Assembly (NCBI GenBank): GCA_027459505.1
Contig: DAIDIE010000029.1
Coordinates: forward strand, 1 to 64,000
DNA length: 64,000 nucleotides
Source: Acidobacteriota bacterium
GTDB lineage: Bacteria > Acidobacteriota > Terriglobia > Terriglobales > SCQP01
Direction: 5' to 3'
The notes beneath the pieces are model-generated. The model was not told the DNA's origin. It saw nothing but the letters and a program-made list of their open reading frames with translations, and ran no database searches. Made by a program: the position numbers and the translations under genes. Positions 16,945-31,014 of this stretch are shown one piece after another; positions within the stretch are counted from its first letter, which is position 1; each line of letters starts with the position of its first letter.

Positions 16945-18189
16945 ATGCCTTCCTGTCCCCGTCGCAACTGTGTTCCGGTGAATGTTGGTGGTGTGTGGCT
17001 GGGTGCCGGTCATCCCGTGGTCGTCCAGTCGATGACCAATACCGACACCGCCGACGTAAACGCGACCATCGCGCAAGTGCTGCATCTGGCGCGCGCCGGC
17101 TCGGAACTGGTGCGGGTGACGGTCAATACCGATGCCGCGGCACGCGCCGTGCCGGCCATCGTGGAAGGGGTGGGGCGGGCCGGGTTCACTACTCCCATCG
17201 TTGGCGATTTTCACTACAACGGGCATCTGCTTCTCAAGAAATATCCCGCGTGCGCGCAAGCGCTGTCCAAGTACCGTATTAACCCCGGCAACGTCAGCAT
17301 CGGGCGCAAAGACGACGACAACTTTCGGGCCATGGTCGAGGTTGCGGCCGAACAGAACAAGCCGGTGCGGATTGGTGTGAACTGGGGTTCGCTCGACCAG
17401 GTGCTTTTGACGCGGCTGATGGATGAAAACGCGCGGGCGGAGCAGCCGCGCGAAACGCGTGAAGTGATGCTGGAAGCGATTGTGCAATCGGCGCTGCTCT
17501 CCGCCGCCGCCGCCGAACGCTACGGGTTGCGGCGCGAGCAGATTATTTTGAGCGCCAAGGTTTCGGGCGTGCAGGACCTGATCGCCGTCTACCGCGCGCT
17601 GGGAAAGAGTCCTTATGCCTTGCATCTCGGCTTGACGGAAGCGGGTTTGGGCATGAAGGGGACGGTGGCCAGCACGGCCGCCTTGGCGGTGCTGTTGCAG
17701 GAAGGCATTGGCGACACCATTCGCGTCTCTTTGACACCGACGCCGGGCGGGGATCGCGCGGAAGAAGTGCGGATCGCGCAGCAAATCCTGCAGTCGCTGG
17801 AACTGCGCAGCTTTACGCCCCAGGTAACTGCGTGCCCAGGCTGCGGCCGAACCACCAGCACCTTCTTTCAGGAGATGGCGCAACAGATCGAAGGGCACAT
17901 CCGCGAGCGCATGCCAGCCTGGCGCAGTCAATACAGCGGGGTGGAAGAGCTGAAAGTAGCAGTGATGGGCTGTGTGGTCAACGGTCCCGGGGAGAGCCGC
18001 CACGCCAATATCGGGATCTCTCTGCCGGGGACGTTTGAAGAGCCCAAGGCGCCGGTCTTCATCGATGGCCGCCTGTTCCGTACCTTGCACGGTGAAGGGC
18101 TGGTGCAGGAGTTCATCGCGCTACTGGAGAACTACGTCGCCAGCCATTACGTGCGCAGTGAAGAGGTTGCGGGGACGCTGAGCTATTGA
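16945..18189 (+). CDS. ispG: 4-hydroxy-3-methylbut-2-enyl diphosphate synthase (IspG/GcpE)
   Basis: 414 residues, the usual bacterial two-domain form. The N-terminal TIM barrel contains [18 protein letters not shown] and [10 protein letters not shown]. The C-terminal [4Fe-4S] domain has TACPGCGRT and [18 protein letters not shown], giving the cluster cysteines. It catalyses the penultimate step of the MEP isoprenoid pathway, feeding the polyprenyl synthase encoded 2.5 kb upstream. The stop is only 11 bp from the end of a decayed IS630 transposase gene read from the opposite strand. Confidence 0.97.
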
Positions 18190-18199
18190 GTGTCGCATA

Positions 18200-19038
18200 T
18201 TATACTGAAGGCTCAAAGAGTCCGGCCTGACGCCAGAAGGCAGCCAGCAGTGTTGGCCGGCGGCGCATACGCCGGAGGGAGCGGATCGCGACGGTCCTGG
18301 GCTGGGCGAGGCTGCGGGGCAGAAGTTCGGGATCTCGTGTTGCTTGCGGTGGCCCCAGCTGTATTCGGACGGGTTCAGCTCGGGAGCGTAGGCGGGCAGG
18401 AACTGAAGTTCGATGCGCCCGTTCTGGCTGGCGGCGAACTCACGCACGACGCGGCTGCGATGGACCCGCAGACCGTCCCAGATCACCATGAGATCGCCCG
18501 AGAACTTGGCGCAGCAGATGCTGCAAGAACTTGATGGCCTGCGGCGCTCGCACCGCTCCGGCGAACAACCGGAAATAGAACCGGAACCAGGTGATGCCAG
18601 CTATCGCGCTCAGCGTCATCCAGCCGAAGTGGCCTGCAGCAGCGGCGTCTGCCCGCTGCGGCGCCCAGGTGCGGCAGCGGTGTGGGCGCTCGGTCAGTCG
18701 GCTCACGTCGATGAAAACAATGGTTTGGCCCTGCGCGGCAGCTTTTTTTTAGGGTCGGCCACACCTTGCGCTGCCAGCGCCGGATGGCCGCCTCGTCGCG
18801 CTCGGCCCAGCGCCCCGCTGGGCGCTGGCAGCTGCAGCCGAATTCGCGCAGGATTTTCCAGACGTGGCCGGAGTGGTAGCGCACTCCGCAGTCGCGCTCG
18901 ATCAGATCGGCCAAGAATGCCAAACTGCCTCGCTTTGTTGGCTTCTAGCCTGTGTTGGGGTTGGGCCTCGGCCCCGCCGGACTCGCCAGTTGTGCTCTTG
19001 GAGACCGCTTCAAGCGCTACGCTGCGGCCGCAGCACAT
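18200..19038 (-). pseudogene. IS630 family transposase remnant, multiply frameshifted
   Basis: Read on the minus strand, pieces of an IS630 transposase appear in order but in different frames: GVRYHSGHVWKILREFG and RRWQRKVWPTLKK (18923-18745), IVFIDVSRLTERPHRCRTWAP (from about 18725), MVIWDGLRVHRSRVV with FLPAYAPELNPSEYSWG (18489-18340), and AAFWRQAGLFEPSV ending at the TAA 18202-18200. The first shift coincides with a run of eight A (18750-18743); removing one A would restore the frame. The N-terminal HTH region is missing or unrecognisable. A full IS630 transposase is about 340 residues, so this is a degraded copy. Confidence 0.8.
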
Positions 19039-19068: not shown

Positions 19069-19133
19069 CTAACCGAACGTTGGCCTTAGGGCAGGACTTA
19101 TCCGGTCTTGCCGCCGCTGGGAGGTGTCAATCG

Positions 19134-21005
19134 GTGCGGACTACACTGCTGCGGTTACGCGTAACGCTACCATTCCGCCTTTGCCTCTGCGTTATACTCT
19201 TCGGACGGGCTCTCTTTGGCCAAACTTTCGCCGCTGGCGTTGTAACCCTTGTTAGCGGTACAGGAAGTGCGCCGTCGGCAATCACATCCGACAACTCCGG
19301 CGATCTTTACTTTGCTACTTATGACGTGCGCACCGCTTCCCATGATTTGCTCTACGAGGCGAATGAATCGACCGGAGAGATGACATTAATCGGCGGCGGA
19401 GGGGCTGTGGCACCGAGCGCGACGCCGACCAATGCCCTGAGCGTTAGCTTTCAAGGAATTGGTGGATTGGCGCTGGACGGGGCCGGGAATCTGTACTTAA
19501 CAGAGGGCGCTGATCTGGACAAGCTCGACCTCGCCACCGGTGATGTTGTTGTCGTCAACAACCAACTCTTTGGGTCGGCTCTATCCTTTTCTGGAGGGAA
19601 TCTCTACTTCGCAACTCAGGATTCCACCGGAAATCACATCGATCAAGTTCCGGTGGATCAGCCGACCCAAGTGACCGTTTTGTCGAGCGGGGGCGCCGAC
19701 AGTTGCCCCACATTCGGACCGATACGGGGCATTGCGGCGTACGACGCGGGCGGCGGGAGTGTCGATCTTTTTATCGCCGATACCAGTAACCATATTATCC
19801 AACTCCTGCAGTACCCTGGCGGCCAGGAATCGATCATCGCTGGCGGTGGCACCGCTGTGCCAAGCTCCATACCTGACGGCGCCACGCAGGTGCTGTTAAA
19901 GGCGGCGAGCGGGCTCTCCGTCTCAGGGCCGTGGGGCAGCAACAACGATATCTATATTGACATCACCGACGACTATGGTCTTGTCGAACGCGTCAGGTAC
20001 AACGAAGGGGACATCCGCGTTATCGCGGGCGGCGGCACGGAGGACCCATCCCAGACTCCCATCGCCCCTTTGGACGCGCTCTTCTGGCTGCCAGGGCCCA
20101 TCGTTTCGGATGGTTCGGCCCTTTTTGTTGCTGACGATCAGGCTTACAAGATTTACCGTGTCAGTTTCGTAGGCCTTGGCGTAAGCCTTTCTCCCTCCTC
20201 GCTTAGCTTCCCCGGCGAGCCCGTGGGCGGATCAGCAACTTCGCAAAATGTCAATCTGACCGTTTTTGGCGACGAGCCCTTGGCCATTTCCAGCATCAAG
20301 GCGAGTTCGGGCTTTGAAAGCAGCACTACGTGCCAGAGCCCGGTGCCGGCCGGGTCTCAGTGTTCCGTCGCCCTATCGTTTGCGCCCATCTCGGCGGGCA
20401 ATCAAGCCGGCGTGCTTACGATCACGGATAACGCTCCTGACAGTCCTCAATCGGTGATATTGAGCGGGACCGGTCAGGACTTCTCCTTGCTCGCGGCCAC
20501 CAGCGCCGCGAGCGTCACTGCGGGGCAGACCGCCAGCTACACGCTGGTCCTTCAAAGCGTGGGCGGGTTCAATCAAACCGTTAGCCTGAGCTGCAGTGGG
20601 GCGCCGGCGAAGTCCGCTTGCGGGGTGCCGGCGTCGGTAGCGATGCCGGGCAATGTAAGTGTCCCGTTCGCCGTTTCGGTGGTCACAACCGCGAGCACAT
20701 CGGCAACGCCGCTGGCTCCGGGGAGCGGGCCGGATTCACCCTCGTCCGAAAATACGTTGTGGTTGCTGACCGCCGCCCTCGTGGCGTCGATCCTCATTTT
20801 GATGACGGCAACGCGGCGCTTGCGCATCGCTTCTATCGCCATTCTCGCCGCCTCTTTTCTCGGCTGCGGGGGCGGGACAACTGTTAGCGGCACAAGCGTT
20901 AGCGGCACACCGCCGGGTGCCTACACGCTGACCGTGACCGCCGTCTATTCGAGCGGGCAGACAACGCTGACCCACAGCACGACGTTAACCCTAAACGTCA
21001 AATGA
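19134..21005 (+). CDS. Secreted beta-propeller / choice-of-anchor D protein with C-terminal membrane segment
   Basis: 623 residues from a GTG start preceded by GGAGG (19120-19124). A signal peptide is followed by an NHL-like beta-propeller up to about residue 360, with repeated DGAGNLY, SGDLYFA, SNHIIQL and GG(G)TA blocks. Next comes a choice-of-anchor D/ASH-type domain (SPSSLSFPGEPVGG ... LSGTGQDF), then an Ig-like unit (ASVTAGQTASYTLVL). A transmembrane helix (WLLTAALVASILILMTA) with basic residues, a second hydrophobic segment and an LGCGGG stretch precede a short final strand region (YTLTVTAVYSSGQTTLTHST). This order is common in acidobacterial surface proteins. Adhesion or polysaccharide binding is inference. 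Confidence 0.8.
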   Translation: MRTTLLRLRVTLPFRLCLCVILFGRALFGQTFAAGVVTLVSGTGSAPSAITSDNSGDLYFATYDVRTASHDLLYEANESTGEMTLIGGGGAVAPSATPTNALSVSFQGIGGLALDGAGNLYLTEGADLDKLDLATGDVVVVNNQLFGSALSFSGGNLYFATQDSTGNHIDQVPVDQPTQVTVLSSGGADSCPTFGPIRGIAAYDAGGGSVDLFIADTSNHIIQLLQYPGGQESIIAGGGTAVPSSIPDGATQVLLKAASGLSVSGPWGSNNDIYIDITDDYGLVERVRYNEGDIRVIAGGGTEDPSQTPIAPLDALFWLPGPIVSDGSALFVADDQAYKIYRVSFVGLGVSLSPSSLSFPGEPVGGSATSQNVNLTVFGDEPLAISSIKASSGFESSTTCQSPVPAGSQCSVALSFAPISAGNQAGVLTITDNAPDSPQSVILSGTGQDFSLLAATSAASVTAGQTASYTLVLQSVGGFNQTVSLSCSGAPAKSACGVPASVAMPGNVSVPFAVSVVTTASTSATPLAPGSGPDSPSSENTLWLLTAALVASILILMTATRRLRIASIAILAASFLGCGGGTTVSGTSVSGTPPGAYTLTVTAVYSSGQTTLTHSTTLTLNVK

Positions 21006-21537: not shown

Positions 21538-23448
21538 ATGTGTGGTATCTACGGTGCGGCGGGCAAAGATGTGCAGGCGTTGCGGCTGCGTCCGGTAGGG
21601 CGGCGACTGAAGCATCGCGGGCCGGACGAAACGGGTAGTTATGTCGGCCGGAACGTGATGCTGGGCAACGAACGCCTCAGCATTGTGGACATTGCCGGTG
21701 GGCAGCAGCCGGTGCGCAATGAGACCGAAGAGGTCATCGCAGTCCTTAACGGAGAAATCTATAACTACTCTGAACTGCGCCAAGGTCTTGCGGCGCGTGG
21801 TCATGAGCTGCGCAGCCAGACGGATACGGAAGTATTAGTCCACCTCTATGAAGAGGAGGGGGAGCGGTTTGTGCAACGGCTGGAGGGCATGTTTGCCCTG
21901 GCGCTTTGGGACGAGCGCAGCCAGAGTTTGCTGTTGGCGCGGGATCGTTGTGGGGTGAAGCCGCTCTATTACTGTCAGCAGCCGGAGCGCATGCTGTTTG
22001 CCTCCGAACTCGGCGCCTTGATGGCGGAGCCCAGTGTGAGTTCGGAAGCGGATCTGAGCGCGCTGGACCTTTATCTGCAGTTGAACTACATTCCAGCCCC
22101 CTGGTCGGCTTATCGCGAGGTGCGGAAGCTGCCGGCCGGTCATCTGCTGCGATGGCGCCGGGGGGAAACGCGTCTGATGCGCTACTGGCTGCTGCCGACG
22201 CGCGGTGGGGAGACGCCGGCGATTCCGGCGGCGATGCCGGAGCGGGCCCAGGTGCTGGAACAGAAATTGCGTGCGGCGGTGCGCAGCCGCTTGACGGGGG
22301 ACGTGCGGATTGGCTTGTTTCTGAGCGGGGGACTGGACTCGGCCACGGTGTTGTCGTTTATGGCGGAGTTGCAGAGCCGTCCGGTGGCGACGTTTTCCGC
22401 CGGTTTTGCCGAGAGCGCCTATTCCGAGTTGCCGCAGGCGCGTCTGCTGGCCAGGCGATTCGGCGCCGAACACCACGAAATGTTATTGGGGGCGGAAGCG
22501 GTCTACCAGCTTCCCGCTTTGCTGGAACACTTTCACGAACCGTTTGGGGATTCTTCCGCGCTCCCCACCTATTACGTTTCCAAGCTGGCGGCGCGGAATG
22601 TGAAGGTGGTGCTGGGAGGAGATGGGGGCGACGAGTTGCTGGCTGGCTATCCCAGCTATCAGGCGTTGGCGCTGTGGAGGGGTATGGAGCGGGTGATGGG
22701 GCGGCACGCCGGAAGCGCGTTGCGGCGGGTCAGCGAGATGGCCGCGCACCTGCCGGTGAGCGATGGCAAGCTGCCCTGGGAATACCGTCTGAAGAAGTTT
22801 CGCGCCGGCGTGGATTGTCCGGCGGAGCAGCGCGCGCTGGCCTGGCGGGGGATCTTTGGAGACGAGCAGCGGCGGCAACTGTGGCAGGCCGAGCCGGAAA
22901 ACGCTCTTTCCCGGTTAGTGAGTGATCACCTCAATAACTGCGACGATACGCATTGGCTTGGGCAGGCGCAGTTTTTGGATTTCTCGCTGTACCTGGCTGA
23001 CGATATTTTGGTGAAGCTGGACCGCATGAGCATGGCGCACGGGCTGGAGGCGCGCGAGCCGTTGTTGTGCAGTGATCTGGTGGAGTATTGTTTCGCCTTA
23101 CCGCCGGAGGACAAGCTGCGGCGCTGGCAACGCAAGTATCTGCTGCGGCAGGTGCAACGGCAGAGGCTGCCGGCGGCGATCCTGCACGCCCCCAAGCGGG
23201 GGTTCAGTATTCCTTTGGCGAGTTGGCTGCGCGGGCCATTGCGGCGCTTGAGTGAGGAGTGGCTGCTGGATGCGCCGCCGGTGCTGTATGAGTGGCTGCG
23301 GCGGGAAGCGGTTGCGGAACTCCTGTCCCGGCATCAGCGGCGCGAAGAGAATCTGGGGCGGCAGATATGGAATCTGCTGGCGCTGGTGCACTGGCTGAAG
23401 GCGCGCGAACAGCGCAATTGCCAGTGGCGCGCGGCGGAAGCTGCCTGA
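21538..23448 (+). CDS. asnB: Asparagine synthase (glutamine-hydrolysing), exopolysaccharide-type amidotransferase
   Basis: 636 residues. It begins MCGIYGAAG, so Cys2 is the class II glutaminase nucleophile once Met is removed. HRGPDETGSYV and LNGEIYNYSEL complete the glutaminase site. The synthetase domain has the PP-loop IGLFLSGGLDSATVLSF and VVLGGDGGDELLAGYPSY. The C-terminus (RMSMAHGLEAREPLL, then APKRGFSIPLASWLR) fits the AsnB homologues found in XrtA/exosortase-linked polysaccharide clusters. Placed at the head of a glycosyltransferase operon, it probably amidates a sugar or precursor rather than making bulk asparagine. No exosortase gene is visible in the window. Confidence 0.9.
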   Translation: MCGIYGAAGKDVQALRLRPVGRRLKHRGPDETGSYVGRNVMLGNERLSIVDIAGGQQPVRNETEEVIAVLNGEIYNYSELRQGLAARGHELRSQTDTEVLVHLYEEEGERFVQRLEGMFALALWDERSQSLLLARDRCGVKPLYYCQQPERMLFASELGALMAEPSVSSEADLSALDLYLQLNYIPAPWSAYREVRKLPAGHLLRWRRGETRLMRYWLLPTRGGETPAIPAAMPERAQVLEQKLRAAVRSRLTGDVRIGLFLSGGLDSATVLSFMAELQSRPVATFSAGFAESAYSELPQARLLARRFGAEHHEMLLGAEAVYQLPALLEHFHEPFGDSSALPTYYVSKLAARNVKVVLGGDGGDELLAGYPSYQALALWRGMERVMGRHAGSALRRVSEMAAHLPVSDGKLPWEYRLKKFRAGVDCPAEQRALAWRGIFGDEQRRQLWQAEPENALSRLVSDHLNNCDDTHWLGQAQFLDFSLYLADDILVKLDRMSMAHGLEAREPLLCSDLVEYCFALPPEDKLRRWQRKYLLRQVQRQRLPAAILHAPKRGFSIPLASWLRGPLRRLSEEWLLDAPPVLYEWLRREAVAELLSRHQRREENLGRQIWNLLALVHWLKAREQRNCQWRAAEAA

Positions 23449-23710
23449 GGGAGCTGGGCGGGCAGACATCACAAGGCGTGCAACGAGAGGCGGGCGACCG
23501 TAACAATGCGGCTCTGCGGCAACTCGCCAGGGGCGCCGAGCAACGTGGGTTCCAGGCTGCCGCTGCATGGTTTGCCGCAGCCCGCGCGGACTTTGGGTGC
23601 AAAGCCATGTTGCCGGACGGTTTTTTTTCCTGGTTCGCATCAGAGCGTAAGTGTCTGTCCAGCAATGCCGTCTGGCGGCGGAGCGTTGCGCGGGCAGGCG
23701 GCACGCTGCC

Positions 23711-25021
23711 ATGCATCTGGGCTACATTTTTTCCCGCTACCCGCTGGTGAGTGAGACCTTCATCCTGCGCGAAATGGACGAGTTGCAGCGGCGCGGACAT
23801 TGCTTGAGCATTGCGCCGTTGTACCGGCAGCCGGGAGGGAACGGGCATCCGCGGGGGCGTGGGTTAGAGGCGGCGATCGAGTTTCCCCCCTGGGTATCGG
23901 CGGGGCTGGCGCGCCGCTATTTTGGCGAGCGGCGGGTACGCGCCTGTCTGCGCGAGGCGCGCGCGCTGTGCCGGGGGGATGGCCGCTTGTGGCTGGGGGC
24001 GGTGGCGGCCTCTGGCGCCGCGTTGGCCATTGCGCAGCGCTTTGAACGCGTTGGTGTGGAACATGTGCATGCGCATTACGCCACGCATCCAGCCCTGGTT
24101 GCCTGGATCGTGCACCAGCTGACCGGCATTCCCTTCAGTTTTACCGCTCATGCTCACGATCTTTACGTGCATCCCGCCGGCCTAGCGGAGAAGGCGGGAG
24201 CGGCGAGCTTTGTCGTCACCATTAGCGAGTTCAACCGGCGCTGGATTTTGGAGCGGTCGCCGCAGCTGCCACCCGGGAAGGTGCATGTGGTGCATTGCGG
24301 AGTGGAGTTGGAGCGCTACGCCGGGCTGCGCGGCGCGCCAGCATTGAACGAAACAGGGGAAGAGTTTGATACCAGTACGCTGCGCGATCGCCGGTTGCGT
24401 CTGCTGACGGTGGCGTCGCTGCAGCCCTATAAGGGGCACCGTGTGTTGCTGGCCGCCTGCCGGCTGCTGCAAGCGGAAGCGGGTTGTGAGCCGCACTGCC
24501 GCTGGGTAGGGGATGGGGAACTGCGGCGGTCCCTGCAGCGCGCCATTGCGGAGGCTGGGTTGGGGCAGCGCATTGAATTGTTGGGGGCGCTCAACGAGGA
24601 GCAGGTGCTGGAGCAGTTGCGGTGGGCCGACGTGTTCGTGCTGCCGAGCGTGCGGCAGCGTTCGGGAAAGATGGAAGGCATTCCGGTGGCGCTGATGGAG
24701 GCGATGGCGGCGGGTTTGCCGGTGATTGCAAGCCAGCTTTCCGGGGTTGGCGAGCTGGTTTCGGCCTGGCAGGGCAGAGCCGCTGGGGTGTTGACGCCAC
24801 CGGGGGATGCGCGGGCGTTAGCGGAGGCGATCAGCGGCATGCGCGAGCGGGGGTGGCGGGCGGCGCTGGGGGCCGCCGGGCAGCGGCGGGTGGCGGACGG
24901 TTTCTCGCTGCAGAGCGAGGTGCAGCGGCTGGAGGGGCTGTTTTTGGCTCAGGCAGGGCAGCCACGGGGGCAAGCGGCGGGGATGGGAGGCGGGGCAAGG
25001 AGTGAAGACAGGCGGCTATGA
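23711..25021 (+). CDS. Glycosyltransferase family 4 (GT-B) protein
   Basis: 436 residues from ATG 23711. It opens HLGYIFSRYPLVSETFILRE, typical of colanic-acid-type GT4 enzymes. HVHAHYATHPALVAW and FSFTAHAHDLYV form the acceptor side. The donor-binding half has LLTVASLQPYKGHRVLL, VGDGELRRSL, IELLGALNEEQ and the EGIPVALMEAMAAGLPVIAS signature with the conserved Glu pair region. It should transfer a sugar to a lipid-linked intermediate at the cytoplasmic face. Its TGA overlaps the next ATG by 4 nt (ATGA). The gap to asnB (262 bp) holds no gene. Confidence 0.93.
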   Translation: MHLGYIFSRYPLVSETFILREMDELQRRGHCLSIAPLYRQPGGNGHPRGRGLEAAIEFPPWVSAGLARRYFGERRVRACLREARALCRGDGRLWLGAVAASGAALAIAQRFERVGVEHVHAHYATHPALVAWIVHQLTGIPFSFTAHAHDLYVHPAGLAEKAGAASFVVTISEFNRRWILERSPQLPPGKVHVVHCGVELERYAGLRGAPALNETGEEFDTSTLRDRRLRLLTVASLQPYKGHRVLLAACRLLQAEAGCEPHCRWVGDGELRRSLQRAIAEAGLGQRIELLGALNEEQVLEQLRWADVFVLPSVRQRSGKMEGIPVALMEAMAAGLPVIASQLSGVGELVSAWQGRAAGVLTPPGDARALAEAISGMRERGWRAALGAAGQRRVADGFSLQSEVQRLEGLFLAQAGQPRGQAAGMGGGARSEDRRL

Positions 25022-27933
25022 ACGCACTGGCAAGCACATTTTGGGACGCTTCGATCGGCGTCGTCGTTGGGTGGGCAGTGCTGCTGTTTTTTGGCGGCGT
25101 TTTGTTTCTGACCTGGATTGGTTATCCGCTGCTGTTGGCGTTATGGGCATGGGTGAAGCCGCCAGCGGAAACCGGGAAAGAGGCGAGGTCGCCGGCAGCG
25201 CTGCCGCGGTTGACGCTGATTGTGGCGGCGCACAACGAGGCGAGCAGCATTGCGGCGCGCCTGGAGAACGCTCTGCAACTGCGCTACCCGGCGGAGCGAT
25301 GGGAAATTGTCGTCGCCGAGGACGGGTCCAATGACGCGACCGCGGAAATTGTGCGGAGCGTGATTACGGCCCAGCCGGCGAGCGGGACCCCGCGCGTGCG
25401 GCTGTTTAGCTGGCCGGAACGGTTGGGCAAGGCCGAGGCCCTAAACCGCGCGGTGGCGCTTAGCGTTGGCGAGGTGTTGGTGTTTTCCGACGCCAACAAT
25501 CTCTATCAGGCCGACGTACTGCTCAAGCTGGTGGAACAACTGAAGAACCCGCGGGTGGGAGGGGTTTTTGGGCAGAAGACGGTGGCGGAGCGGGCCGGGG
25601 TGGGAGCTGGCGAAAGCGTGTACTGGCGCTATCAGCGCTGGGTGCTGCGCCAGGAGCACCGCACCGGCGCGCTGGTGAGCGGGCCGGGAGAGATCTTTGC
25701 CATGCGGCGCAGGGCGTTCCGTCCGTTGCCCTCGAACTGTCTGGTGAACGACGATTTATATCTTTTGCTGGAACTGTTGTGCCAAGGCTATCAGACCGGT
25801 TTTGCGGAAGGGGCCTTGTCGTGGGAGCTTCCCTCCAGCGACGGGATGGAAGAGGGCAAGCGGCGCGTGCGGATGACGATTGGGCGGCTGAACGCGCTGC
25901 GGCTGCTGTGGCCGCAATTACGGCAAACCAGTTTGGGGGTGCAGTGGAAGCTGCTCTGCCACGAAGTGTTGCGGGTGTTTTCCTGGCTGTGTATGGGAGC
26001 GGTGTTGGTGAGCGGCGCGGGCTTGTTATGGGTGCTGCCAGATGGTGCGGCGGAACGTTGGTGGCTGTGGGCCTTGTTGCTGGGACAGCTGGTCTTTTAC
26101 CTGCTGGCGGGGGGAGCAGCACTGCTGCGGCGTCTGGCGCCGCAACGTTGCTGGGGGCCGCTGGAGGCGCCGTACTTTTTTTGTCTGGCGCAGAACAGTT
26201 GCCGGAAAGGCTTTTGGCAGGTGCTGCGGGCCCACTGGAGCAGCGGCAACAGTGATCCGCGTTGGCACCGGGTGCGGCGCGCGACTCCGGCGAAGGCGGT
26301 ACTGGAGAACGGGAACGGTTTCGGGCTGGGCGCGACGGCGCTGGCCGAGGCCGGGGCGAGTGGCGCGGAGAGCAACGCGAGCGTGCTGCCGGAGGGCGGC
26401 GCGCCGAGGTTGGAGACTGGCGAGATCAGTCCCAACCTGATCGTGGGTGGTGTGGCCTGGGCCTATGGATCGTTCGCGCTTGGCAAGGTGCTGGTGCTGG
26501 GCTCGGTTGTGTTGCTGGCGCGGCTGCTGACGCCCAGTGATTTCGGTGTGGTCACGCTGGCGATGACCACGATGGCGTTTCTGGAAATTCTGGGTTCCCT
26601 GGGCCTGCACTCGGCGTTGATTTACCGTCAGCAGTCGGTGGAGCGTGCCGCCCAAACGTGTTTTGAGGCGGGGTTGATCTCCGCGCTGGGGCAGTCGGCG
26701 ATTGCCTGGTGGGGCGCGCCCTGGCTGGCACAGTTTTTCCACGAGCCACGCGAGGTGGCGCTGCTGCGGGCGCTGATTCCGCTGCTGTGGTTCAACTGGC
26801 TTTACAGCACCCATGACACGCTGCTGCGGCGGCGGCTCTCATTTCAGAAGAAGATCATTCCCGACCTGGGTCAGGCCTTTAGCAAGGCGGTGGCCAGCAT
26901 TGTGTTCGCCCTGCTGCATTTCGGGGCCTGGAGTCTGGTGTGGGGGACGCTGGTGGGGGCGGCTTTCAATACGGCGTTGCTGTGGAAAGTGACCGGATGG
27001 CGGCCAGCGCGGCTGTTTTCGCAGAGTCGCGGGGGCGCGGTGTTCCGGCAGATGTTTCAGTATGCCCGCCACGTGTACCTGATGGACGTGAGTGGGACGG
27101 TGCTGGCCAATTTTGATTTTCTGGCGGTGGGCCGCATCTTAGGCGCCTCCCTGCTGGGGTTTTACACGATTGCGTTCCGGCTGCCGGACGTGTTGCTGAT
27201 GAGTTTGCTGAACGTCCTGACGCGGGTGATGTTTCCCGCCTTGAGCCGCTTGCAGGACAACCGCGAGGCGCTGCAGGCGGCGTTGCTGCAGACGATTCGC
27301 TATTCGGCGGTATTTGCCGTCAACGTGGCGCTGGCCATCGCGCTCCTGGCGCGCGGGTTGATGCTCACCCTCTATGGACCGCGGTGGCTGCCCAGTGTTC
27401 CGGTGATGCGGGTGCTGGCCCTCTATGCCGGATTGCGGTGCCTGACGCATCACCTGGGAGACGCTTACAAGGCGACGGGGCGGCCGCATGTGCTGAGCAT
27501 GCTCACCGTGGCCTGGTGGGCGCTGCTGCCGGCGGCGCTCATTCTGGGGGCACATTGGGGCGGCATTGTGGGAGTGGCCTGGGCGCAACTGGTAGTGCGT
27601 TTGTTCATGACGCTGGTCCACCTCTATTTGGCGGTGCGCCTGCTGAAGATACCGTTTTACAAGTTATGGGCGGCGTTTACTCCAAGTCTGGAGACGGCGG
27701 CGGTATTGGCGCTCACGTTGTGGAGCATGCAGCATGTCGCACCGGCTTTGACGCCAGATCTGCATCTAGCGCTGAGCATGTTCTGTGGCGCGGGGGTGTT
27801 TCTGGTATGGACGCAACTTCGCTACCCGGCGTTATGGCTGGATGCGCGAGCCATGTTGCGCAAGCGTCCGGCGGCACGAGCGGGAGAGGCGGTGCTCAAG
27901 CCCAGCGCGGCGGGAATTCGGGAGGCCTCCTGA
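25018..27933 (+). CDS. Fusion of a family 2 glycosyltransferase and a Wzx-like flippase
   Basis: 971 residues in one frame. Residues 1-45 include a membrane helix. About 64-290 is a GT2 domain: LTLIVAAHNEASSIAARL, EDGSNDATAEIV, SDANN (DxD-like, 158-161), GPGEIFAMRRRAF, NDDLYLLLEL and KRRVRM. Two further helices lie at about 315-372. After a linker (420-472) rich in Ala/Gly/Glu, residues 473-930 form a polytopic MOP-superfamily oligosaccharide flippase beginning NLIVGGVAWAYGSFALGKVL, with LLTPSDFGVVTLAMTTMAFL and many helices. These are normally separate proteins. It overlaps GT4 by ATGA and the next gene by 1 nt. Coupling of sugar addition to export is inference. Confidence 0.9.
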   Translation: MNALASTFWDASIGVVVGWAVLLFFGGVLFLTWIGYPLLLALWAWVKPPAETGKEARSPAALPRLTLIVAAHNEASSIAARLENALQLRYPAERWEIVVAEDGSNDATAEIVRSVITAQPASGTPRVRLFSWPERLGKAEALNRAVALSVGEVLVFSDANNLYQADVLLKLVEQLKNPRVGGVFGQKTVAERAGVGAGESVYWRYQRWVLRQEHRTGALVSGPGEIFAMRRRAFRPLPSNCLVNDDLYLLLELLCQGYQTGFAEGALSWELPSSDGMEEGKRRVRMTIGRLNALRLLWPQLRQTSLGVQWKLLCHEVLRVFSWLCMGAVLVSGAGLLWVLPDGAAERWWLWALLLGQLVFYLLAGGAALLRRLAPQRCWGPLEAPYFFCLAQNSCRKGFWQVLRAHWSSGNSDPRWHRVRRATPAKAVLENGNGFGLGATALAEAGASGAESNASVLPEGGAPRLETGEISPNLIVGGVAWAYGSFALGKVLVLGSVVLLARLLTPSDFGVVTLAMTTMAFLEILGSLGLHSALIYRQQSVERAAQTCFEAGLISALGQSAIAWWGAPWLAQFFHEPREVALLRALIPLLWFNWLYSTHDTLLRRRLSFQKKIIPDLGQAFSKAVASIVFALLHFGAWSLVWGTLVGAAFNTALLWKVTGWRPARLFSQSRGGAVFRQMFQYARHVYLMDVSGTVLANFDFLAVGRILGASLLGFYTIAFRLPDVLLMSLLNVLTRVMFPALSRLQDNREALQAALLQTIRYSAVFAVNVALAIALLARGLMLTLYGPRWLPSVPVMRVLALYAGLRCLTHHLGDAYKATGRPHVLSMLTVAWWALLPAALILGAHWGGIVGVAWAQLVVRLFMTLVHLYLAVRLLKIPFYKLWAAFTPSLETAAVLALTLWSMQHVAPALTPDLHLALSMFCGAGVFLVWTQLRYPALWLDARAMLRKRPAARAGEAVLKPSAAGIREAS

Positions 27934-29234
27934 TGAGCGGAATGCAAACGCGACCGGTGCTGGCAAGTGGGGCCGCAGCTGCCGCGGCGACCGGCGGCGC
28001 GGGGGCGCAACAATCGCTCCACGTGGTGTGGGGCGGGGAAGCGCTGGAGGGGGCGGAGGGGCGGTGGCGGGAATTGTTTGCCAGCGCGCATGGCAACAAC
28101 CCGTTTCTCAGTTGGGAATGGCAGGCGACCTGGTGGCGGACGCAAGAACAGCAGCGCGGCTGGCGGCCAGCGACGCTGCCTTACCTGATTCTGGAGCGCT
28201 TTGCGGACCGGCGATGGGCAGGGTTGCTGGCGCTGCAGTGGCGCACGGGAATGCCGGGGCGCTGGGAGATGCTGGGGCAGGAGAATGGGGGGGATGAGCT
28301 GGACCTGCTGGTGCACCCGCAGGCGGACGCGGGGACGGCGGCACGGCTTTTGCGGGAGTGGCGCCGGCAGTGGCGCTTGCGCCCGGCCTTTTGTCATTTT
28401 CTGGCGCGCTTGCGCGGGGTGCGCGCCGGGGGTGCGCTGGATACGGGCCTGGGTGAGATGGCAGGAAGGGGTGGGCTGCAATTGAGGCGGCGAAGTTGCG
28501 ATTCGTTGCCGCTGCTGCGCCTGCCAGCCAGCTTTGAGGAGTACCTGGCGCAACGGAGCTCGAACTTCCGCGGTGAAACGCGCCGGCGGCGGCGGGCGCT
28601 GTGGCGGGCATTTCCGCAAGCCGAGTTCCGGGTCATTGAGCCGGGAGTCGACATGGCCTCCGCGCTGGAGAGCCTTTTCGAACTGCACAACCTGCGGCGG
28701 CGGCAAAAGGGAGGGCGGGGACTGTTTGAGGAGGCGAGGCAGAGATTGTTTCACCTGCAGCTTTGCGAGAGCAGCCGCTCGCCAGTGCTGCCACGCGTTT
28801 ACCTGCTCGAAAATGAAGGGCAGGCCCTGGCGGCGCTTTATGGGTTTCAGGTTGGAGGACGCTTTGCGTTTTATCAGAGCGGGATGGATCCGGCGGTAGC
28901 GGAGCACAGTCCGGGTGGGGTGCTGATGGGGCTGATCGTGGAAGACTGCATCCGGCGGGGATTGACGGAATTCGACTACCTGCGTGGCGAGGAGGCTTAC
29001 AAATCGCGCTGGACCGGGGAGGTCCGGAGCACGGTGGATTGGCAACTGACGCGGGGGTGGGCTGGGACGCTGTATCGCGGAGCGCAGCAGACGAGGCGTT
29101 TGGCTACGCGGTGGAAACCATCCTGGGCAGGTCACTCCGGGGCGAACCACACTCCGGCGCCGGGGCTTGAACAAGGGTCAAAACAGACCTCGGCGGATGG
29201 TCCACTGACCAGACGCGAGGAGGAGGCGACATGA
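27933..29234 (+). CDS. GNAT/FemAB-like (BioF2/CelD-type) acyltransferase
   Basis: 433 residues; ATG 27933 overlaps the preceding TGA by one base (TGATG). PFLSWEWQATWWRT near residue 55 is the opening signature of CelD/BcsL-type and FemAB-like proteins in polysaccharide clusters. The second half carries SSNFRGETRRRRRALWRAF, the central LESLFELHNLRR helix, and the GNAT core LAALYGFQVGGRFAFYQSGMD followed by SPGGVLMGLIVEDCIRRGLTEFDYLRGEEAYKSRW. Likely role: transferring an acyl or aminoacyl group to the nascent polysaccharide or its precursor. Its 3' end overlaps the deacetylase gene by 4 nt. The acyl donor cannot be read from sequence. Confidence 0.85.
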   Translation: MSGMQTRPVLASGAAAAAATGGAGAQQSLHVVWGGEALEGAEGRWRELFASAHGNNPFLSWEWQATWWRTQEQQRGWRPATLPYLILERFADRRWAGLLALQWRTGMPGRWEMLGQENGGDELDLLVHPQADAGTAARLLREWRRQWRLRPAFCHFLARLRGVRAGGALDTGLGEMAGRGGLQLRRRSCDSLPLLRLPASFEEYLAQRSSNFRGETRRRRRALWRAFPQAEFRVIEPGVDMASALESLFELHNLRRRQKGGRGLFEEARQRLFHLQLCESSRSPVLPRVYLLENEGQALAALYGFQVGGRFAFYQSGMDPAVAEHSPGGVLMGLIVEDCIRRGLTEFDYLRGEEAYKSRWTGEVRSTVDWQLTRGWAGTLYRGAQQTRRLATRWKPSWAGHSGANHTPAPGLEQGSKQTSADGPLTRREEEAT

Positions 29235-30136
29235 GGCCGGCCGGCTGGATCAAGAAGCGGCTGGCGGCGCCACTTGCCGGAGCGCTTCCGGGAGGGTTAT
29301 GGCGGCGTGCTCTTTCCTCTACGGACACGGACCGGGTGCTGGCTACCATCGTGGCTCTTCACCGCGTCAGCCCGCGGGTGGAAGACGAGCTGAGTGTCAC
29401 GCCCCGGCAGTTGAAAGCCCTCTGCGAATACTGGCGGAGGGAGTACCGTGTGGTTTCCCTGGGACAGCTGCTGCAGATGTTGTCCACTGGCCCCGGCGCC
29501 GGTATTAGCGAGCGTCCGCGCCTGGTGATTACCTTTGACGATGGTTATGCCGACAACGCCGAAGTTGCCGCGCCGATCCTGAAAGCCGCTGGTTTGACGG
29601 CAACGTTCTTTCTGGCCAGTGGCTTCGTCGGCACGCAGCGGCGCTTTGCCTGGGACGTTCCGTTAAGCTTTGTGCCGGCAATCATGAGTTGGGCACAGGC
29701 GCGGGAGCTGGTCCAGGCCGGATTTAGCGTAGGTTCGCATACGCGCAACCACGTGCGCGTATCCCAGTGCTCCACCGGTGAACTCTCCGCGGAGCTGGTC
29801 TATTCGCGAATGGAGATTGAAGACCGCGTAGGGCAGCCGGTACTGGATTTCGCTTACCCGTTTGGGGCGGCCAGCGACTGTCTCGCGGAGCAGCGGGCCA
29901 CGATTGCGGCCGCCGGCTACCGGAGCTGTTTGAGTTGTCATGGCGGGGCGGTCTTCGCCGGGGATGATGCGTACTGGCTGGAGCGTATCGCGATCAGCCC
30001 GCGTTATCACGCCACTCCGGGTGCGTGGGAGAGGCAGCGCCTTTTGACGATCAGGAGAAGCGTGGATGCGCGTGAGGGTGTGCAGCCGCGGACTGCGGCC
30101 AGTCCCAGCGCGCCGGACAAGGCGAAGGTGCATTGA
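29231..30136 (+). CDS. Polysaccharide deacetylase (NodB/CE4) family protein
   Basis: 301 residues. TFDDGYADN (101 onward) gives the catalytic base and metal Asp. SHTRNH supplies the two metal His ligands (His170 and His174). LDFAYPFG is the third CE4 motif. The N-terminal 35 residues are basic and Ala-rich without a clear cleavable signal, so the enzyme may act on cytoplasmic or membrane-bound intermediates. The ATG overlaps the preceding stop (ATGA), making it the last gene of the coupled exopolysaccharide operon. Expected reaction: N- or O-deacetylation of the polysaccharide. Confidence 0.92.
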   Translation: MRPAGWIKKRLAAPLAGALPGGLWRRALSSTDTDRVLATIVALHRVSPRVEDELSVTPRQLKALCEYWRREYRVVSLGQLLQMLSTGPGAGISERPRLVITFDDGYADNAEVAAPILKAAGLTATFFLASGFVGTQRRFAWDVPLSFVPAIMSWAQARELVQAGFSVGSHTRNHVRVSQCSTGELSAELVYSRMEIEDRVGQPVLDFAYPFGAASDCLAEQRATIAAAGYRSCLSCHGGAVFAGDDAYWLERIAISPRYHATPGAWERQRLLTIRRSVDAREGVQPRTAASPSAPDKAKVH

Positions 30137-30312: not shown

Positions 30313-31014
30313 TCAGGAACCGCTTTCACTGGACGGAGCGACCTTGACAATCTTCCCTTTTCTGAAGGTCACATCCAGGGGCTGGTGGTCGCCGGGGAAA
30401 TAGTAGGTTCGGGAGCTGCCGTTGTCGTCTTCGAGCTGCGCGGTGCCGCCGGAGAGATTGGCCTGCATGATGGTCATACCTGGTAGCAGTTGGTGCAGGT
30501 TGACCTCCTGCCAGACCTTCGGACCCCAGAAGGCAAAAAGCTTGTGTGGGTCGTCGAGAAAGAACTCGCTATCGACGAGCATGTGGGCATTGCCACCCTG
30601 GGCATCGGAGCTGCCAATGAGGACGGCCCTTTCGGTAGCTCCGTCTTTATAAGTCAGGAAAATCGCGTGTCCGCCTGCCCAGGGTTGCAGCAGACGTCCA
30701 GAGACATTGATGGGCTGCAACGGTGGCAGCAGGCGTGCTCCAGTTTTAACGGCGCGTCCTGCCCGGACCGGATAGGACCAGTAGCCGTAGCCGACCTTAA
30801 TCCAAAGGGTTTTCCCGACCAGGGTCTTGGCGCTGTAGTAGTCGTAGACGTAGCTGCTACGGATGAACACGGAATCGTCGGCGCTGAGCGCCGGCTCGGT
30901 GGGGGCGGCCGCGGGCCGTGAATCGAGATAGCGCTGCCGCATCACCCACGCAACGCGAATCCCGACGAGCAGCACGCCCAGGGCGGTAAACACCTGCAAT
31001 TTGCGCCAGTCCAT
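30313..31014 (-). CDS. Membrane-anchored hypothetical protein
   Basis: 233 residues. A single N-terminal helix (LQVFTALGVLLVGIRVAWVM) with an early Arg/Lys anchors an extracytoplasmic domain. That domain is beta-rich with many aromatic residues (SSYVYDYYSAKTLVGKTLWI, GYGYWSYPVRAG) and ends near FRKGKIVKVAPSSESGS. No known family was recognised. Composition and codon use are normal, and the frame is free of repeats, so it is likely real. It converges with the exopolysaccharide operon across a 176-bp gap in which nothing else was seen. Confidence 0.7.
   Translation of the reverse strand: MDWRKLQVFTALGVLLVGIRVAWVMRQRYLDSRPAAAPTEPALSADDSVFIRSSYVYDYYSAKTLVGKTLWIKVGYGYWSYPVRAGRAVKTGARLLPPLQPINVSGRLLQPWAGGHAIFLTYKDGATERAVLIGSSDAQGGNAHMLVDSEFFLDDPHKLFAFWGPKVWQEVNLHQLLPGMTIMQANLSGGTAQLEDDNGSSRTYYFPGDHQPLDVTFRKGKIVKVAPSSESGS

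Follow-up and report, generated by a model that had tools for sequence, protein, structure and literature searches.

One-protein synthase-flippase systems are known in AglD, a glycosyltransferase (GT) of archaeal N-glycosylation, and in MprF (PMC5898192). On how flippases are kept from exporting unfinished lipid-linked sugars, a pneumococcal study raised metabolic channelling and enzyme complexes as a possibility needing research (PMC8561386), and a paper on an O-antigen model gave only Wzy and Wzz as confirmed to interact (PMC4863624). None of the papers listed by our literature searches described fusion between a MOP-type flippase and a glycosyltransferase, which is no proof of absence. The window, the whole stretch of 64,000 nucleotides of Acidobacteriota DNA analysed here, encoded such a protein, a chain of 971 residues that starts with a membrane GT2 (residues ~1-420) and continues through a disordered linker (~421-470) into a flippase of the MOP/PST type (~471-950). 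The frame ran on the plus strand from an ATG at 25018 to a TGA at 27933, 971 codons without an internal stop, as the initial annotation of this DNA had described with correct coordinates and linker position. It comprised:

25018..26280, plus strand: GT2 half, residues ~1-421 (Pfam PF00535/PF13641; AlphaFold2 match to PcManGT 6yv7; transmembrane peaks)
26281..26427, plus strand: Ala/Gly-rich linker, residues ~422-470, predicted to be disordered and cytosolic (pLDDT ~30; GC3 0.90)
26428..27930, plus strand: MOP/PST-type (Wzx-like) flippase half, residues 471-971, with the fold aligned to ~946 (PF13440, 1.3e-61; MurJ and WzxE matches)

The Ala/Gly-rich linker had also been recognized correctly. 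Its GC3, compared with 0.77-0.79 in the two halves, is in keeping with coding sequence, and a search for a missed stop at 26280-26430 found none. In a first survey of 59 related genomes, the fusion was found within the window's own GTDB family, where it was complete and in frame in nine of 14 genomes, the window genome counted; the domain pair, which the initial annotation had proposed to seek elsewhere, was thus present in eight further genomes. That the junction is an artefact of sequencing or assembly, an idea with no positive support beyond the window coming from a multi-contig assembly, is refuted by the ten complete homologous fusions in these nine genomes (window, G001, G003, G004, G005, G006, G009, G011 with two copies, and G013), which come from different assemblies, and we give it practically no credence. 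The relatives' fusions were 40-46% identical to the window protein along their whole length and spanned five genera of the family, across which no re-split was seen. Named MAG records with the fusion include JAKASR010000007, JANWLQ010000012, JANWJU010000029 and 061, JAJYIU010000003, JAKAZV010000025 and DAIDIF010000040. In G008 the fusion was cut by a contig end, and in G012 the GT2 and flippase halves lay at the ends of different contigs; it was absent from G002, G007 and G010, which all belong to a single genus within the family. The two copies in G011 belonged to paralogous fusion clusters (L037:7737-10829 and L038:2325-5081).

Homologues were found when contigs were scanned with an alignment as query, whereas a single-sequence query returned no matches. 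In a scan of the order (249 genomes), flippases fused in this family reached 695-767 bits, with 325 in the truncated G008; all other flippases stayed at 236 bits or less and were mostly in frames of ~500 residues. Across the phylum (347 genomes), the best outsiders (G493, G310, G476 and G266) reached 390-477 bits and were all stand-alone. A class-wide scan of 299 genomes with a full-length profile gave end-to-end matches only in the window's family, and the other matches listed were confined to one part, either GT2 or flippase. Several further candidates were rejected as fusions. A 984-residue Williamsia flippase frame (L071) had an N-terminal part that matched no query gene and close relatives of 588-681 residues, pointing to an over-long frame; L123 had both halves nearby as separate genes; L081 had no flippase ORF in the ORF comparison; and L064, the nearest stand-alone GT2, considered as a hidden fusion at a contig end, ended normally at 383 aa.

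That one protein unites a GT2 with a Wzx-like flippase, each of them complete, as first annotated, was supported by Pfam, in which both domains were complete and above their cut-offs. In the GT2 half, Glycos_transf_2 was complete at residues 67-234 (E 2.6e-23). The half consisted of one N-terminal transmembrane helix, a cytosolic GT-A domain, interface helices and two more transmembrane helices, with only three hydrophobic peaks (13-31, 322-340 and 352-370). The following motifs were conserved among the ten fusions:

25318..25329, plus strand: E101-D102-G-S donor-binding motif (D102, G103 and S104 invariant in 10/10)
25489..25497, plus strand: D158-A159-N160, the DxD equivalent (DAN; D158 and A159 invariant in 10/10)
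25750..25755, plus strand: D245-D246 (NDDL), putative catalytic base region (invariant in 10/10)
25861..25875, plus strand: RRVRM (R282-M286), the QxxRW counterpart (R282, R283 and R285 invariant in 10/10)

The initial annotation had assigned this half an acidic base, RRVRM and a DxD motif; the first two stood, while the strict DxD gave way to D-A-N. Stand-alone GT2 relatives carried D-A-N/S/D at this position, D-A-N/S being usual for the subfamily, and the conserved catalytic acidic residues were D102, D158, D245 and D246, with N/S for the second D of DxD as in most subfamily members. The GT-A fold and the Glycos_transf_2 profile placed this half among PcManGT-like membrane GT2 enzymes, and among proteins of known structure PcManGT was the closest to it in sequence (E 2.3e-19). 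A processive synthase of the PgaC/HasA/NodC kind, making and extruding its own polymer, might be suspected because TIGR03937 PgaC_IcaA was the best NCBIfam match and Foldseek listed hyaluronan and cellulose synthases. However, the PgaC match reached 64.5 bits against a cut-off of 422, the QxxRW motif of processive synthases (HasA/BcsA/PgaC/NodC) was absent from the GT2 half, where RRxRM took its place, and there were only the three transmembrane peaks. The AlphaFold2 model of this half also matched PcManGT 6yv7 far better than the synthases (Z 35.7 over 342 residues versus ~23), and we consider a processive enzyme very improbable.

In the flippase half, Polysacc_synt_3 (PF13440) was complete at residues 499-795 (E 1.3e-61), and PF01943 was also above its cut-off. 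The modelled half matched MurJ 7wax (Z 30.9 over 469 residues) and WzxE 9g9n (Z 30.2 over 397), so that both the Polysacc_synt profile and the MOP fold of a Wzx-like MOP/PST flippase were present, and it is predicted from sequence and model to translocate a polyprenyl-PP-linked glycan. The AlphaFold2 model of the whole fusion, built on a 14-row alignment, had a mean pLDDT of 82, a pTM of 0.59 and a disordered stretch at 409-470; with these values each half is reliable and their relative placement is not. MOP flippases begin on the cytosolic side. As the three hydrophobic peaks and a GT domain in the cytosol place the linker on that same side, the membrane topologies of the two halves are compatible. 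Among the fusion relatives the linker ranged from ~15 to 90 residues, with neither length nor sequence conserved. It contained in-frame GTG (26383) and TTG (26410) codons with weak Shine-Dalgarno-like sequence upstream, from which an internal start might release a separate flippase, as might proteolysis, giving two products from one gene; because the linker is not conserved among homologues, this seems to us quite improbable.

The fusion lay in an operon with the following genes:

21538..23448, plus strand: asparagine-synthase-like amidotransferase (PF00733, 1e-94; also adjoins the GT4-fusion pair in G005)
23651..25021, plus strand: GT4 glycosyltransferase (PF00534; overlaps the fusion start by ATGA; adjacent wherever the flank is present)
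27927..29234, plus strand: GNAT/FemAB-like acetyltransferase, start codon not fixed (PF13480, 2.2e-26; conserved neighbour)
29231..30136, plus strand: polysaccharide deacetylase (PF01522, 9e-22; conserved neighbour)

Wherever flanks were present, relatives kept the order GT4, GT2-flippase fusion, GNAT, deacetylase. On the same strand, ~5-9 kb upstream of the fusion, G001, G004, G005, G006 and G011 carried genes for a phosphoglycosyl transferase and Wzy, and further GTs were also found upstream in relatives. In the window genome, Wza-like, Wzz/Wzc-like, phosphoglycosyl transferase, Wzy and double GT4 genes stood together on contig C17, where the phosphoglycosyl transferase was 61%, Wzy 39% and the GT4s 36-46% identical to G006 orthologues. 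The genes expected alongside the flippase in a Wzx/Wzy-dependent pathway, for Wza-like and Wzz/Wzc-like proteins, Wzy and a phosphoglycosyl transferase, were thus present, occupying one locus in relatives and contigs C43 and C17 in the window genome, which makes this a Wzx/Wzy-type exopolysaccharide pathway, split in two in the latter. Transposase debris (window 18121-18923, minus strand; HTH_33 and DDE_3 in two overlapping frames) lay upstream of the operon at a distance of ~2.6 kb, at the flank where the fusion cluster is parted from its upstream half. It was followed by a large ORF (window 19080-21005) that probably encodes a secreted protein with repeats and that contained an NF058595 'invert_tail' anchoring domain and a choice-of-anchor-D-like domain, and just downstream of the operon was a 233-residue ORF (window 30313-31014, minus strand) without a Pfam match. 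An XrtA/PEP-CTERM (exosortase) EPS locus was rejected: the amidotransferase scored 508 bits against TIGR03108, under the cut-off of 817, and neither C43 nor C17 had an exosortase gene beside the fusion cluster, the exosortases of this genome being on C34 and C35. The exosortase-linked cluster was on C34, where a GT2 paralogue that is not fused was found together with Wzy and a phosphoglycosyl transferase.

The unfused state of the fusion cluster is represented by a Chloroflexota locus (L058, Ardenticatenaceae), in which GT4, GT2 (391 residues) and flippase (487 residues) each have a gene of their own, arranged as in the fusion cluster; the gene after them resembles a Wzy polymerase by eye. This counterpart and the stand-alone relatives agree with the initial annotation that the halves are normally separate. 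The four Acidobacteriota outsiders closest to the family also had GT4, GT2 and flippase in one cluster, though in varying order; since the GT2 partner of the nearest stand-alone flippases occupies other positions or orders, adjacency is not required for function. All fusions formed one clade in the flippase tree (100/100), nested in a larger clade whose other members were stand-alone flippases from Chloroflexota, Acidobacteriota and Actinomycetota, and their GT2 halves formed one clade in the GT2 tree (100/100). Both trees point to a single origin of the GT2-first fusion in one Acidobacteriota family. Its rise is most simply read as the loss of a stop codon separating two coupled genes, and a particular mechanism for that loss can only be conjectured. 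Fusions with the flippase first (Polysacc_synt_3 followed by GT2) were found in other Acidobacteriota families:

L151:3218-5941, flippase-first fusion
L152:2960-5644, flippase-first fusion
L153:3135-5771, flippase-first fusion
L179:8453-10858, flippase-first fusion

The first three were 56-61% identical to each other across genera, and L179 was distant. Like the window protein, all have both domain types in one frame, but their order is opposite, their GT2 part is only weakly similar and in the flippase tree they branch separately from the window clade, which together indicates an independent origin. The flippase part of L150:3808-7209, a 1133-aa protein with a pectate-lyase/epimerase-like C-terminal domain, was 56-60% identical to those of the flippase-first GT2 fusions. 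Other proteins of such pathways were fused as well: L184:8182-10953 and L185:5476-7890 joined two GT4 domains of the same pathway whose halves were separate neighbouring genes in L053, and in L173:3289-5607, L174:7749-10661 and L176:9184-11544 a GT4 was fused to an APH-type phosphotransferase, adjoining a stand-alone flippase.

The fusion might be neutral or merely regulatory, a small indel having joined two ATGA-coupled genes and fixed their stoichiometry while the halves work independently with no functional hand-over. Operon junctions around the fusion overlap by ATGA or TGATG, as the GT2 and flippase genes of L058 do by ATGA, the linker is disordered and not conserved, and GT4-GT4 and GT4-APH fusions occur in such pathways. 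Nevertheless, the fused state was retained over five genera at 40-46% identity to the window protein with no re-split seen, and the repeated joining of GT2 and flippase, in either order, speaks for some benefit rather than chance alone; we hold a neutral fusion to be rather unlikely. Our preferred reading, which we consider probable, is of a single inner-membrane protein of a Wzx/Wzy pathway, with one origin, in which a non-processive GT2 is tethered to a MOP-type flippase and the likely benefit is prompt flipping. The N-terminal PcManGT-like GT2 would add one sugar to a polyprenyl-linked repeat unit at the cytosolic face, presumably late in its assembly, and the C-terminal flippase would turn the unit to the periplasm, where Wzy would polymerise it, with the flexible cytosolic linker holding the two together. 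Two neighbouring genes coupled in translation would have given rise to the fusion, a single time, within one family of Acidobacteriota, and a late GT kept beside the flippase at 1:1 may allow finished units to be flipped promptly and unfinished ones less often. The activities of the two halves, the place of the GT2 in the repeat unit and this benefit are predictions from homology, fold and gene context.

Fusion tethers the GT2 to the flippase. With a disordered, unconserved linker and halves that lack a confident relative placement, the analysis establishes tethering but not channelling, although direct hand-over of substrate from GT2 to flippase, which the initial annotation had raised as a possibility, is plausible. 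True channelling, in which the GT2 would finish the repeat unit and deliver it straight to the flippase tethered to it, so that the protein itself checks completeness, is an idea we entertain as doubtful. If correct, this would to our knowledge be the first fusion of a MOP flippase and a glycosyltransferase shown to channel, and Acidobacteriota would have come to this solution repeatedly, with the domains in either order. The protein bears on how cells keep flippases from exporting unfinished lipid-linked sugars; together with its unfused relatives it forms a natural test of coupling, and the idea could be tested by cutting the linker.

Set against known systems, the GT2 half is like PcManGT (6YV7) of Pyrobaculum calidifontis, which has three transmembrane helices (PMC10569066), in sequence and fold, but PcManGT is a stand-alone crenarchaeal mannosyltransferase and the window GT2 is fused to a flippase. 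The flippase half shares its fold and Pfam family with Wzx/PST flippases (WzxE, TuaB, WzxC-like) and MurJ, all of which stand alone, whereas here a GT2 is carried at the N-terminus. AglD resembles the window protein in having an N-terminal GT domain and a C-terminal flippase-like membrane domain in one chain, and MprF in uniting synthase and flippase of one lipid product (PMC5898192). MprF differs in its flippase-first order, its lysyl-phosphatidylglycerol product and its other domain families. In AglD, which serves archaeal protein N-glycosylation and not a Wzx/Wzy polysaccharide, the C-terminal domain is PF03706/COG0392 (MprF-type); Pfam found only MOP-type Polysacc_synt domains, and no PF03706/COG0392, in the window's flippase half. 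AglD and MprF are thus known analogues of the fusion, built on a transporter superfamily other than its own.
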